64,000 nt of DNA, taken from the NCBI GenBank assembly GCA_027317945.1, contig DAHVQB010000003.1:62001-126000 (forward strand). Reading direction: 5' to 3'. Below, one piece after another: positions 41,703 to 47,386 of the stretch (the first letter of the stretch is position 1; each line of letters begins with the position of its first letter). Source of the stretch: Microcaldota archaeon. Lineage in GTDB: Archaea > Micrarchaeota > Micrarchaeia > Micrarchaeales > Micrarchaeaceae. The notes under the pieces are model-generated. The model was not told where the DNA came from and ran no database searches. It saw only the letters and a program-made list of their open reading frames with translations. The translations under genes were made by a program, and so were the position numbers.

Positions 41703-43526
41703 TTAATGCGGCGTATAATTCAGCAGCTCGTACAAAGAGAAGTTGGATCCCATATCCCCGTATTCAGTGGCCAACGTTCTTACCTTGTATTGAGACAGCA
41801 AGGAATTGCATGCGGTATTGTTGAATGGCATGCCGCAGAACCAGCTGTAATCAAGCACGAAGCAGCTATGGTTGCCCATGCTTATTCCAGATGCATTGTA
41901 TTCGGATACGTATGCAGCGCTCCTGTTCAACCCGTACCATAGGTATGGAGATGGAGAGAATACCAAGCAGCCGGCCGGAACTAAGTTGTAGTTGTCGTTG
42001 ATAAACGTCAGGGACCTATTAGCGTATGACATTGCATATGGGCCATTTTGAGCGCTTGCAGTACCTATTACGGGAAAATCAGGATGAGCATAGTTGGGGC
42101 TGGAGATATACGGGATTGATTGGATGAATGGCAAGACAAAGAATAGCGCGATTAATGAGAAGCACAGTGCATAAACTGTGATTCTTCTTGCATCAGCAGT
42201 GCGCGCTTTATGCAGATTCCTGACTGACAGCGACGCGACGCCGTAAACCCCGAAGGCCGCCAATATCGAAAGCGAAGGGAACAGTATCAGGAGGAACCTT
42301 ACCGAGGTGCCGGAAAGCGCAGAGCCGGAAAAGTACATCCCGTAGAATATGAAGTAGGATACGAATATCGATGAAAGCAATAGCAATGCAGGACGGCTGC
42401 GCTCCCCTCTTCGATCGAAAAATAAGAACGCCGCACCTGCCATCGCAAGTATTGTTATCTCAGGCAGGAATATTGCAGGATATGCATTTATGCCGCCCAT
42501 TAGAAATAACAGATTTTGAATGGCGACTGTTGGCAGGTATGAAATTGACAGTATTGGTAAGCCGCTTTTCAGGAACAATTGTGTATTTATGAGCAACTGC
42601 GGCCCGGCGAGGTTTATGAAAATTAGCTCAGGTGCCAGCAGAATCAATAGTACGATAGCGGTGGACTGTGCATATTCCGTCAGCACGGCCTTCTTAATCT
42701 GCCCGACCCTTTCAATGAATGTGCGCTTCATATCATTGCCGCCGAATGTCAGAAATGCCAGAAGCAATATCGGAATCAGTATTAAGGCTTCCAGCCTCAG
42801 ATACGCAGTTAGCACCATGCTGAACAGAGCCATCCATAAGGTACGCTTGGTGCGTGTCTTGATGAATATTATGGATAGCAATACCGTTATAATGGAGAAC
42901 AACATGAACGGCGTGTTTGGATTCGCTAACGTGCCAGACCATATGAAAACCTCTGGTATGGTGGCAAATATGGCTGCGGAAATTATCGGTATCTCCTTCC
43001 TATTCGTGATGATGCTGGAGAGTAGGAATACCGCAACGATTGACATTGCACTGATGGATATCTCAAGGCCGTGTGCCGTAATTTGACCTGCGCCAAAAAG
43101 CGCGAATGGGATTGCAATGAGGAATGGCCATCCTGATGGGTCAAAACCGGTATAATTGACATAACAACTTTTGAGGTATGAAGTTCCGTATAAGCATGGC
43201 AAGGCGTTGCCATGGTTAAGTATGTTCAATGCTACGCTCTGGTATATCTGTTCATCGAAAAATATCAGCTCCGTGCTCCTCAAAAAGAATGTAGATATTA
43301 TAATGAAATATATTACTATCAGCAACAAGCCGAAAATAGAATAACGGTTTATGTTCGGCTTTAATGCTACGATCACATCCTTCCTGCCAAGTATTAGAAG
43401 CGCGACCAAGCCTGCCAGTGCAACCGAACAAACCAACGTTATGGCGTATCCTATGTAAAGGCTTACGAATATCAGGTAAATAAGAAAAATGCAGAACAGC
43501 AATATGCTCTTGGAGTATATTTTCAT
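41703..43526 (-). CDS. multi-TM glycosyltransferase (GT39/ArnT-like)
   Basis: 607 aa, many TM helices, FFDEQIYQSVALNIL motif near the N-terminus. Confidence 0.75.
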   Translation of the reverse strand: MKIYSKSILLFCIFLIYLIFVSLYIGYAITLVCSVALAGLVALLILGRKDVIVALKPNINRYSIFGLLLIVIYFIIISTFFLRSTELIFFDEQIYQSVALNILNHGNALPCLYGTSYLKSCYVNYTGFDPSGWPFLIAIPFALFGAGQITAHGLEISISAMSIVAVFLLSSIITNRKEIPIISAAIFATIPEVFIWSGTLANPNTPFMLFSIITVLLSIIFIKTRTKRTLWMALFSMVLTAYLRLEALILIPILLLAFLTFGGNDMKRTFIERVGQIKKAVLTEYAQSTAIVLLILLAPELIFINLAGPQLLINTQLFLKSGLPILSISYLPTVAIQNLLFLMGGINAYPAIFLPEITILAMAGAAFLFFDRRGERSRPALLLLSSIFVSYFIFYGMYFSGSALSGTSVRFLLILFPSLSILAAFGVYGVASLSVRNLHKARTADARRITVYALCFSLIALFFVLPFIQSIPYISSPNYAHPDFPVIGTASAQNGPYAMSYANRSLTFINDNYNLVPAGCLVFSPSPYLWYGLNRSAAYVSEYNASGISMGNHSCFVLDYSWFCGMPFNNTACNSLLSQYKVRTLATEYGDMGSNFSLYELLNYTPH

Positions 43527-43585: not shown

Positions 43586-43620
43586 TGGGCCTGAAGAGAA
43601 TCGAACTTCCGGCCTTCACG
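43586..43620 (-). pseudogene. displaced, degenerate tRNA-Val 3' half (att-like)
   Basis: 29/35 identities with the 3' half of tRNA-Val at 47315-47349, same orientation. Confidence 0.7.
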
Positions 43621-43791
43621 AGAATTTGACAAAATTCGACGCGTATTTTTACTGCCCATAGCAACCCCGATTAAGCATTTGCTTGCAAACGAACCCCGAT
43701 TATTCACAGTTATTTTGCAACCCCGAATTTAAATAGGCAACGGGTGCGGTTTTCGTGAATTTGAATCCCTTATATGGGTCCTCGGAAAGTG

Positions 43792-43860
43792 TGCTCTGAT
43801 CGGGATTTGAACCCGAGTTCCGGCCTTGAGAGGGCCGTGTCCTTGACCGTGCTAGCTCTC
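43792..43860 (-). pseudogene. tRNA-Glu(CTC)-like gene with non-matching 5' portion
   Basis: Good T arm TCGGG-TTCAAAT-CCCGA and anticodon arm CGGCC-CTCTCAA-GGCCG; 3' acceptor TCAGAGC-A lacks a correct partner next to the D arm. Confidence 0.6.
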
Positions 43861-43940
43861 ACGGATGTCACTGCTAATCCGAACCCAAGCTAATAACAAT
43901 TCTTATAACCTTTAAGCCTAATACAATTAAGGCTGGGCTC

Positions 43941-44321
43941 ATGAAAGTAGCGCATCTGCTCATTTATAGTGCAGTCATTTTGGTTATAATAGCAGTCATT
44001 GTTCTTGCGGAGATTGGCAACTATTCTGCTCCAATTTTCACGTTAAAACATAGCGCGAGTGGTCAAATAACCGCATCATTCATTAAGAATGAATCTTGGC
44101 GAATAGGAAGTTGTTCTCGTTGCAACTTTGCACCAGTTACGGCCTATAATTTTAGCGGTATGTACTTCACGTATTCAAATGGAACAATGATAATTTTCAA
44201 TAATGTTTCTAGCTGCTATCCAATTGATTATGTTGGTGATTTACTGTCACCACTTGATGGGTGTTTCAATCCTCCGAAAGGCAATTATACTATTTATGGG
44301 CACTTAAATAAAACGCAGTAA
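43941..44321 (+). CDS. small membrane-anchored/secreted protein
   Basis: N-terminal TM helix, NxS/T-rich, paired cysteines. Confidence 0.55.
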   Translation: MKVAHLLIYSAVILVIIAVIVLAEIGNYSAPIFTLKHSASGQITASFIKNESWRIGSCSRCNFAPVTAYNFSGMYFTYSNGTMIIFNNVSSCYPIDYVGDLLSPLDGCFNPPKGNYTIYGHLNKTQ

Positions 44322-45197
44322 TCAAAAGCCTTTAGAAAATTGACTTTTCAGTTCGTGCAGTTTTGAACGATCAAAAGCGAATTCTATATTCTTGAATAAG
44401 TCTTCGTTGTCTTTTGCTATGTAGCGCATTGTTGTTGCTGGATTAGAGTGTCGGGCGAATCTGGCGGATAAAACGACGTTGCCATTAGTTGACTTTGCGA
44501 AGTGCGTTATCGCGTAATGACGCAAAGAGTGAGTCGTTAATCTATGGAGCGGCCTCGACTTGTGCGTTGAATACGCCTCTTCCGAAGTCTCATAAATCTG
44601 GTTCAGGTCAACCTTCTGGACGACTTCCCGGAAGACGTTTCTTGCATGGTTAACATTTATGTAAGGCAGCTCGGTGTGACCGTAGTCATTTTCTTTATAG
44701 AAAATGTAGCCATGTGCTGCCTTAATCTCTTTCGCATGCTTGTTAATGAATTCTATAGTTGCTTTGAATAAGTCCAAAGGTATTATTAGCAAATCCATGC
44801 AGTCAGACTTCTCACTCTTCAAAATGAGTTCCCGCTTGTCGAAGTCAATGTTACTTATGTGCAACTTGCAGACTTCGCCGACACGGAGGCCGAGATAAGC
44901 TTGATACCTGAACAGAAGACCGAATTTCTCGCTATGTATATTTCTCAGGAAATGCTGTAGCTCGATTTCGGTGAAGCCCTTATTGATTGAGCCGTATCGA
45001 GGCTCTTTCCGTCTTTTGAAGCGCCTTTCATGTGCTTTTGTAACGATGGTTCTTAGCTGCTCTAGCTTGTTCTTTGATATGGCGTTGCTTACGTGTTCTA
45101 CTTGTTCCAGAAAGCACTGGAAATCCGACCCCGAACCCTGTTTTTCGGACCCTGCTGCTCTACGCCGGAACGCTGTGGAAACGAACCATGAACCCAC
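44322..45197 (-). CDS. tyrosine recombinase/integrase
   Basis: GLRVGEVCKL, THSLRHYAITHFAK, ARHSNPATTMRY; start uncertain (ORF open to 45473, GTG at 45197). Confidence 0.88.
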   Translation of the reverse strand: MGSWFVSTAFRRRAAGSEKQGSGSDFQCFLEQVEHVSNAISKNKLEQLRTIVTKAHERRFKRRKEPRYGSINKGFTEIELQHFLRNIHSEKFGLLFRYQAYLGLRVGEVCKLHISNIDFDKRELILKSEKSDCMDLLIIPLDLFKATIEFINKHAKEIKAAHGYIFYKENDYGHTELPYINVNHARNVFREVVQKVDLNQIYETSEEAYSTHKSRPLHRLTTHSLRHYAITHFAKSTNGNVVLSARFARHSNPATTMRYIAKDNEDLFKNIEFAFDRSKLHELKSQFSKGF

Positions 45198-45265
45198 GTT
45201 TTCGCGCGTTCCTTTCTTGCGTCTCAATCCCGGATTCGAACCCGTGATTTCCAATGCTAGAAATG

Positions 45266-45282
45266 AGTGGGCCCGAGGAGAA
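45266..45282 (+). repeat. 17-bp att-like copy of the tRNA-Val 3' end: agtgggcccgaggagaa
   Basis: Identical to 47313-47329, which contains the last 15 nt of tRNA-Val. Confidence 0.8.
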
Positions 45283-45534
45283 CCCCCCACAGCTACGATT
45301 AAGAAAGCTAAGCCTAATAACCCCACCCCCAAAGACCCCAAGACCAAAGATTCCAAGAACCCAAGAGCTATACGCCCCCGAGCTAGCCGAGATACAAGGA
45401 GAGCCCCGAGCCCTAGCAAGGAGGCGCCTAGGGGCGCCGACGTTGGGGGGTTCAAGGCCAGAGAGGCAATCAAACTGTCGTCTAAGGTTCAAATCCTGCT
45501 TGCGGATTATCGAACCCCTTGCGTGGTGTGCACT

Positions 45535-46428
45535 ATGAGGAGCATAGACACCCACCTGGAGATAGAGATTCCAACGGAGTTCGCTTACAATCCAATCCCA
45601 GAGCGCAGGCTAGAATCAGAGAAGATAGAGGACTATGTAAAGGCCAAGTTGCCTGATATGGGCAAGGGGCGCATAGAGGAGCTAAGGACGCAAATCAAGG
45701 ACTATTACCTGGGGCGATTCCGCAGACCCAAGACGGCCAAGTACGGCTCGTTATCGAAGGCCTTTTCGGAGCAGCAGCTCACCATGTTCCTGCACCAGGT
45801 ATCAAACCCCAAACACGCCCTCCTTTTCAAGATGCAGGCGGGGCTTGGGCTTCGCATAGGCGAGGCAGTGAAGGTCAATATACGGGATATAAATTTAGAG
45901 TCTAGAGAAATCAAAATCCATACGGAGAAGGCGAGGCAGTTGGACAGCCTCATAATAGCGATTCCTCTTTTTAGGGAACTCCTTGAGTTCATAAAGGCCA
46001 ACTCCGCGCAGATAGAGCAGAACGATGGCTACATATTCTTCAGGGAGGCTAAGTTCAGCCCCAGAAAAGAGCCCTATCTTGAGGTCAATTATATAAGGCG
46101 CATGTTCAGGGAGTATGCGGAGCAGGCAGGGCTGGACGAGGTCTATGATGTGAGCGAGGAGCGCGATGGGAGAGCCCCCCACAAGCTCCATCTATTGACT
46201 ACGCACAGCCTCCGCCACTACGCAATCACAAAATTCGCAAGGAGCACCAATGGCAACGTGGTGCTCACCAGCAGGTTCGCCAGGCACAGGGACATGAGCA
46301 CCACGTCTAGGTACATCAGCACCGATAAGCGTGAGCTGTATGAAGTAATTGATGCGATTTCTATAAGCGAAGCGACTTTGTTAAAAAGAAAACTCTCTAT
46401 GTCGTCCTCTGAAAGTGGTATAAAATGA
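45535..46428 (+). CDS. tyrosine recombinase/integrase
   Basis: GLRIGEAVKV, THSLRHYAITKFAR, ARHRDMSTTSRY; ATG at 45535 in the longer ORF 44971-46428. Confidence 0.9.
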   Translation: MRSIDTHLEIEIPTEFAYNPIPERRLESEKIEDYVKAKLPDMGKGRIEELRTQIKDYYLGRFRRPKTAKYGSLSKAFSEQQLTMFLHQVSNPKHALLFKMQAGLGLRIGEAVKVNIRDINLESREIKIHTEKARQLDSLIIAIPLFRELLEFIKANSAQIEQNDGYIFFREAKFSPRKEPYLEVNYIRRMFREYAEQAGLDEVYDVSEERDGRAPHKLHLLTTHSLRHYAITKFARSTNGNVVLTSRFARHRDMSTTSRYISTDKRELYEVIDAISISEATLLKRKLSMSSSESGIK

Positions 46429-46640
46429 ACAAACTTCTACGTATAAAAATCATGGCCACTATACTAATGCTTTTTGTTTGGGCAATATTAGAAATAGTTG
46501 CATTTGTTACATCTTATTCTCTGTTCGGCACTATTCCTTATTCCTTTGTGTTTATTTCAGTCTGTGGCATAACAATATGCCTGTTGGAGATTTTTGGTAA
46601 AAGGAAATCAATCCAGCGCCGCCCTAAGCGCCTTTCTTAA
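46425..46640 (+). CDS. small two-TM membrane protein
   Basis: 71 aa, two hydrophobic helices, overlaps the integrase stop. Confidence 0.45.
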   Translation: MNKLLRIKIMATILMLFVWAILEIVAFVTSYSLFGTIPYSFVFISVCGITICLLEIFGKRKSIQRRPKRLS

Positions 46641-47165
46641 GACGGTAACAAAAATATAAATGTACACCATTGCAATTAATCCTACAGCAGCATCTAAAAG
46701 ATTTGTTGTCGCAAATTTTGCATCCACCACTGATAGACCTATGGTATCCAAAGTCCCAGTATAATCTGTTGCCATTGCATTAAATATTGTAGACGCCGAA
46801 TAGAATAGCTGTATCATTATAAAAAGTAGAACGCCAACGTAAATTATAGCCTCCATAATCAAAATTTTTTTACTCTGATGGGTGTCTTTAATCAACTCCT
46901 TTATTGTTTCTACAGCCAATAAACCGAAAAATGCCATTAAAATTCCATCATAAGTTAAGAGCGATTGCAAGAATGTACTATACGCCTGAGGATTTTGTGT
47001 GGCCAAATTCAGAAGATTTGAATTTATTGTATTGTTCGTATACGATACCAAGGCCATATTAAGACTTGTGAAGCTAAAATAAAAACAAACTATTAAGAAT
47101 AGCGCCAAGGCAATCAAAACTGCAACGAATACAAAATCCGATATACGACTTGAGCGATTAACCAT
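46608..47165 (-). CDS. hypothetical four-TM membrane protein
   Basis: 185 aa, four hydrophobic helices. Confidence 0.6.
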   Translation of the reverse strand: MVNRSSRISDFVFVAVLIALALFLIVCFYFSFTSLNMALVSYTNNTINSNLLNLATQNPQAYSTFLQSLLTYDGILMAFFGLLAVETIKELIKDTHQSKKILIMEAIIYVGVLLFIMIQLFYSASTIFNAMATDYTGTLDTIGLSVVDAKFATTNLLDAAVGLIAMVYIYIFVTVLRKALRAALD

Positions 47166-47314
47166 TTTGATTCACTAGTTAAACTTGAAATCCGAACCCC
47201 TGCCCTTTAAATACCTATCAACCCAACAAACTTTAACGCGGTGTATCAATGGCTGCCAAAAAAGCTGCTATTCCTGTGATTCCGAACCCCGCACCTACCG
47301 ACGACAAATATCAG

Positions 47315-47386
47315 TGGGCCCGAGGAGAATCGAACTCCTTGTCTTCACGTTGTCAACGTGACGTCTTACCAATCGACTACGAGCCC
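47315..47386 (-). tRNA. tRNA-Val (GAC)
   Basis: Acceptor GGGCTCG/CGGGCCC, anticodon arm TCACG-TTGACAA-CGTGA, T arm GGAG-TTCGATT-CTCC. Confidence 0.93.

Follow-up and report, generated by a model that had tools for sequence, protein, structure and literature searches.

An intact tRNA-Val(GAC) gene and a displaced copy of its 3′ end enclose two integrase genes in a contig of a Microcaldota archaeon (Micrarchaeota), which raises the question of what was integrated at this locus, how often, and what became of the integrase genes. We analysed a stretch of 64 kb (hereafter, the window) of contig C4 from the 678 kb draft genome G000, which is 72% complete, and all comparisons with other genomes were based on draft MAGs. 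A preliminary description of the window had interpreted the island as one element, perhaps decaying, brought into the tRNA gene by a tyrosine recombinase. Integration into tRNA-Val stood up to comparison with related genomes, but we found two elements in place of one. The island very probably consists of two nested elements, each inserted site-specifically at the 3′ end of the tRNA gene, and each with its attachment site (attP) inside the 5′ end of its integrase gene, which would be parted on integration (Table 1).

Table 1. Features of the tRNA-Val island, in coordinates of the window.
Feature	Position	Strand	Remarks
Displaced tRNA-Val 3′ end, attR of element 1	43586-43620	-	29/35 identity
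int1(N): ATG + 13 codons (MGSKNTRRILSNS), into displaced core	43586-43659	-	
Palindrome-like TTTGCAAGCAAA, between TATA-like box and int1(N) ATG	43678-43689	.	
TATA-like box upstream of int1(N), putative promoter	43727-43735	-	read directly; kept in G002, L132, L149
5′-truncated tRNA-Glu(CTC) fragment, inside element 1	43792-43856	-	
orf126, element 1 cargo, one N-terminal hydrophobic segment	43941-44321	+	no known family
int1(C): frame from core to stop, without ATG before catalytic domain	44322-45265	-	
T-arm-like repeat CGGGTTCGAATCCGGG, upstream of int1	45229-45244	-	
Second 17-nt core copy: far end of element 2, former tRNA-side end of element 1	45266-45282	-	
int2(C): basic Pro-rich linker + catalytic domain	45283-46428	+	internal ATG at 45535
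24-mer like tRNA-Phe 3′ end, T-arm-like	45485-45508	+	common to C7 and C6 of the same genome
orf71, element 2 cargo, two hydrophobic segments	46425-46640	+	no convincing family
orf185, element 2 cargo, hydrophobic segments	46608-47165	-	no known family
T-arm-like repeat, family D2	47184-47199 (also 43871-43886, 45117-45132, 47274-47289)	-	
TATA-like box TTTAAATA upstream of int2(N), putative promoter	47206-47213	+	read directly
int2(N): ATG (47249) + 21 codons (MAAKKAAIPVIPNPAPTDDKY), into tRNA in antisense	47249-47312	+	similar peptides in L179, L180, L182
17-nt core of element 2, tRNA side (attL side)	47313-47329	-	
tRNA-Val(GAC), intact target gene	47314/47315-47386	-	ARAGORN and Rfam

Two Nested Elements at tRNA-Val

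ARAGORN and Rfam agree on an intact tRNA-Val(GAC) gene on the minus strand, as had been described; it is adjoined by an RNase Z gene, and this gene order is kept in relatives. At 43586-43620 lies the degenerate 3′ copy of the tRNA that was also seen in the preliminary description. It gives the strongest non-self diagonal of the window, and among the tRNAs of the genome it is matched best by tRNA-Val (score 20, as compared with 15 for the next). At the same locus of G002, a genome of the same genus, the orthologous displaced copy is an exact 34-nt repeat of its tRNA-Val, and the copy in the window is therefore not a chance T-arm similarity. The copies are some 3.7 kb apart, with two integrase genes and small membrane ORFs between them, likewise as first given. 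Empty tRNA-Val sites, which it had been suggested to look for in relatives, were found in G004, G001, G007 and G012, where the RNase Z/tRNA-Val neighbourhood has neither an integrase nor a second tRNA 3′ copy; these sites are unoccupied, and their far flanks differ from those of the window. Together with the intact tRNA gene and the direct repeat of its 3′ end around the integrase genes, they mark a tRNA-targeted integrated element and support the proposed tyrosine-recombinase integration.

The other diagonal of note in the window is an exact 16-nt copy at 45267-45282, which extends to 17 nt with one extra base (45266). This copy had been overlooked, as had the tRNA-Glu(CTC) fragment, the T-arm-like repeats and the splitting of the integrase genes. 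On one side of it lies element 1, with int1, orf126 and the attR, and on the other element 2 (45266-47312, ~2.05 kb), with int2, orf71 and orf185. In G002, element 2 is absent from the locus and both ends of element 1 are present. The sequence directly adjoining the tRNA in G002 has its match in the window only from position 45282 down (71% over 107 bp), and the 2.03 kb that intervene in the window are flanked by the exact 17-nt repeat. This direct junction in G002, taken together with the repeat-flanked 2.03 kb, shows element 2 to be an insertion between tRNA-Val and element 1. In the proposed course of events, the integrase of element 1 would first have recombined its own attP with the tRNA, which was thereby rebuilt with its displaced 3′ end left at 43586; element 2 would then have used the same tRNA and landed between tRNA-Val and int1, the int1 gene then running with the tRNA and the int2 gene against it. 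Both elements may be mobile.

The type of element 2, with its shared GC-rich end and tRNA repeats of 15-17 nt, also occurs in two tRNA-Pro genes (C7 of the same genome and C7 of G004), where both copies are followed by another integrase or integrase piece in opposite orientation. Other species have it in tRNA-Val and tRNA-Ser genes, and no second integrase was seen at those loci.

Just beyond the attR of element 1 lies a PMT_2-like glycosyltransferase gene (41703-43526). Genomes of the same genus have only distant relatives of it (25-27%), the best match (46%) being in another genus of the family, and it may therefore be an earlier acquisition at tRNA-Val.

Integrase Genes Apparently Parted at the Attachment Site

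In both elements, attP would lie within the 5′ end of the integrase gene, and integration would separate int(N), comprising the promoter, the start codon and 13-21 codons, from int(C), which encodes the catalytic part. As read from the sequence, the frame of int1 is open through the 45266 core, and MGSKNTRRILSNS enters the displaced core in the matching frame; the counterpart of this peptide in G002 is MASKNTRRILSNS, and the nearest relatives of int1 have the int(N) peptides MARKDTRRTLS and MTRNIHRILANS. The start piece of int2, MAAKKAAIPVIPNPAPTDDKYQWARGE, adjoins the tRNA and is encoded on the strand opposite to it, and the int2 frame continues from the 45266 core as WARGEPPTATIKK. In both catalytic domains, R, K, HxxR, H and Y are kept, as expected of the active site. 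Both int1 and int2 have the att site inside the gene, a frame open through it, and parted int(N) and int(C), in the manner of suicidal integrases. Since attP is inside the 5′ end of the gene, integration would tend to silence the integrase, and excision would rejoin the gene. An in-frame ATG inside int2(C), at 45535 and also in L178, L179 and L180, suggests that the antisense type may not be fully silenced by integration.

Distribution among Micrarchaeota

In a sample of 196 genomes from the phylum, 79 had integrases of this family, the largest number of matches in a single genome being 11, and 75 of 100 distinct Micrarchaeota integrases were located directly behind a co-oriented tRNA. When short end stretches of elements from across the phylum were rejoined in silico, an ATG-started integrase frame resulted at 21 of 24 co-oriented loci, as compared with 2/24 and 3/24 in the two wrong frames, these 24 loci being related to one another and not independent. 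Antisense loci rejoined with an ATG in five of eight cases, the exceptions being L111, L178 and L181. Recurring int(N) peptides were MELENDDK, MARNIGVKQLG and M[AT]R[KN]xxRRxL.

The target tRNA follows the integrase tree (35 changes versus 68.5 in shuffles). Two changes on the tree are needed for the antisense-type integrases, to whose clade element 2 of the window belongs; the sister clade, mostly at tRNA-Pro(CGG) and also at Arg(CCT), has an unsplit gene beside the tRNA. A broken integrase behind tRNA-Gly(GCC) has the same stops in G000 (L113:6063-6866) and G003 (L133:9564-10367), and was therefore inherited and not newly inserted.

Alternative Explanations

The island could also be a single old element in decay, with a duplicated integrase gene and an incidental copy at 45266, as the paralogy of int1 and int2 (about 39-44% identical) and the degenerate attR at 43586 would allow. 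However, the 45266 copy is exact, G002 joins the two sides of this copy directly to tRNA-Val, and the same element type and end recur in two tRNA-Pro genes and in other species. In addition, int1 and int2 fall into distant clades, and L178-L180 resemble element 2 alone in tRNA-Val, making a single element very improbable and already disfavoured. The decay suggested earlier is only partly right, since the catalytic residues are kept in both integrases and the repeats of element 2 are exact. A point against our own reading is the attR of element 1, which simple decay does not explain, as G000 and G002 differ at 7 of 35 positions in its core and at 9 of 148 in the left arm (p = 0.016), the other end being 71% alike. 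For pT26-2, an exchange of int(N), core and int(C) has been described (PMC8371274), and a swapped left end of element 1 would fit an exchange of this type. A different objection concerns the integrase genes, which might be of the classical pNOB8 kind, i.e., complete genes read from internal starts beside the tRNA, with coincidental ATG frames at the far ends. The ATG of int2 at 45535 with a full catalytic domain behind it leaves room for this, as does the unsplit gene of the tRNA-Pro(CGG) sister clade, which starts ~260 nt behind the tRNA. Nevertheless, neither int1 nor int2 is a complete integrase gene beside a rebuilt tRNA, since the catalytic domain of int1 is not preceded by an ATG and int2 is situated at the far end. 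The excess of rejoined frames over the wrong frames and the recurrence of N-terminal peptides argue further against coincidence, so that we regard the pNOB8 kind as unlikely and prefer two nested elements with self-splitting integrase genes.

The tRNA-Glu(CTC) fragment in element 1, which is common to G002, might come from a split tRNA gene, of which it would be the 3′ half, as both its anticodon arm and its T arm are preserved and the 72% complete assembly yielded no intact Glu(CTC) gene. Yet intact Glu(CTC) genes are present elsewhere in G001-G004 of the same genus, and neither the window nor the loci examined yielded a 5′ half. Truncated copies recur near integrases; in one of them, in G003 (L133:5880-5948), a tRNA-Glu(CTC) body joined to the 3′ end of a tRNA-Gly follows an ATG int(N). 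We give hardly any credence to a split gene, which was rejected because of the intact genes in same-genus genomes and because the truncated copies track integrases; the most plausible reading of the fragment is a remnant of a third attachment site. The Glu/Gly chimera of G003, which bounds a tRNA-Gly(GCC) element on its far side, is a sign of a past target switch.

Relation to Known Integrases

The integrases match PF00589 (Pfam), and XerA is their best relative by sequence among solved structures and families. The best structural match of the int2 model was also XerA (5hxy); this AF2 model is fair (pLDDT 74, with a poor N-terminus) and served for the fold match only. With 69 and 42 bits, the two integrases missed the cut-off of the XerA family NF040815 (220 bits). 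While alike in sequence and fold, the type in the window differs from archaeal XerA in being multi-copy, located at tRNA genes, and probably mobile. The nearest named holders of the integrases in the window are Candidatus Micrarchaeota MAGs.

Suicidal integrases are treated in a 2021 review as a system of hyperthermophilic archaea, and are held to have arisen once, among enzymes with PF16795 (Phage_integr_3), the domain of the known SSV-type integrases of SSV1, pTN3 and pT26-2 (PMC8371274). We found PF16795 in none of 16 integrases and none of 60 relatives, with controls including Sulfolobus acidocaldarius giving a signal, and membership was rejected. No similarity to SSV1 Int was found, in a weak test with this one sequence. 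As in the SSV type, attP lies inside the integrase gene (PMC8371274), int(N) and int(C) come apart when the element enters the 3′ part of a tRNA gene, and the translated tRNA core is part of the protein, with the frame kept across targets. The Micrarchaeota type differs in its int(N), which has 8-21 codons before the core as compared with 63 in SSV1 (att at 1735-1778 of ORF 961-1968), in having one clade with the core in antisense, and in element sizes of about 2-14 kb. This shortness suggests that start signals, and not folded domains, are removed. With the pNOB8 type, the Micrarchaeota integrases have in common the PF00589 enzymes and, in the tRNA-Pro(CGG)/Arg(CCT) sister clade, the unsplit gene by the tRNA, but the integrase genes of the window are incomplete beside the tRNA.

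XerA-like PF00589 enzymes and the absence of PF16795 point to an independent origin of self-splitting, on the basis of family assignment and not of a tree with PF16795 enzymes. We consider it rather likely that self-splitting arose a second time in these Micrarchaeota enzymes, with both sense and antisense cores, that the switch-off works via removal of promoter and start codon and not by cutting the protein, and that T-arm-like repeats aid moves among tRNA genes. PMC8371274 records self-splitting by an integrase's own insertion for one enzyme family only, which is unrelated and belongs to other archaea, and we found the present elements undescribed in the open-licence PMC literature on Micrarchaeota, DPANN, ARMAN or suicidal integrases. 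A second, unrelated origin in DPANN, if true, would mean that the arrangement has been repeatedly favoured. With small elements (~2 kb upwards) and 24 end pairs, the question of why an element disables its own integrase becomes testable.

By the method used, no relative and no viral contig was found in IMG/VR, and phage and plasmid records gave only weak matches (22-29%), to bacterial recombinases; a virus origin is not supported by these records.

T-Arm-Like Repeats

Between tRNA and integrase, the motif GTTCRR occurs 88 times in 72 loci, as compared with 16 ± 4 times in dinucleotide shuffles. The first copy lies 47-49 nt from the T loop of the tRNA itself in 42 of 56 loci, and a second follows 42-44 nt beyond the first in 17 of 28. 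A single frame of the integrase gene holds 71 of the 88 copies, where DNA and protein constraint are inseparable. The Phe-like 24-mer of element 2 (45485) is kept in C7 in another reading frame, which favours a DNA site. These data suggest that the T-arm-like repeats are probably further binding sites of the integrase. T-arm mimicry as the whole story was dropped when it emerged that the integrase frames continue through the core.

The Phe-like 24-mer of the element 2 end is also located directly behind tRNA-Thr GGT at L173:2054-2077 (G000:C6); no integrase was found on this contig, and the 24-mer is perhaps a solo end. At position 1501 of L026, L027 and L030 (G000:C6:56427, C14:7176 and C6:20477, respectively), the tRNA match stops in the T loop. 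These breaks are probably introns, inside the T-arm apparently used by the integrases. Randau and Soll, as cited in PMC3293823, put forward the hypothesis that tRNA introns shield tRNA genes from integration; the T-arm sites offer a way to test such shielding, for which these three loci are relevant.

Cargo Genes

No convincing family was found for orf71, orf126 and orf185, and no convincing relative in the loci examined. Two tRNA-Pro(TGG) elements, L125:1542-10600 (G002) and L130:1639-9655 (G001), are sister elements with near-identical ends and different cargo, comprising DpnI-like and methylase genes in one, and AbiU-like, DpnII-like and methylase genes in the other. Since the family thus carries restriction-modification and Abi-like genes, it bears on gene gain by ultra-small archaea with reduced genomes. 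A tRNA-Leu(TAG) element (L112:2372-4116, G000:C3) carries genes for a pyridine nucleotide-disulphide oxidoreductase and an ArsR-type regulator, perhaps for metal resistance.
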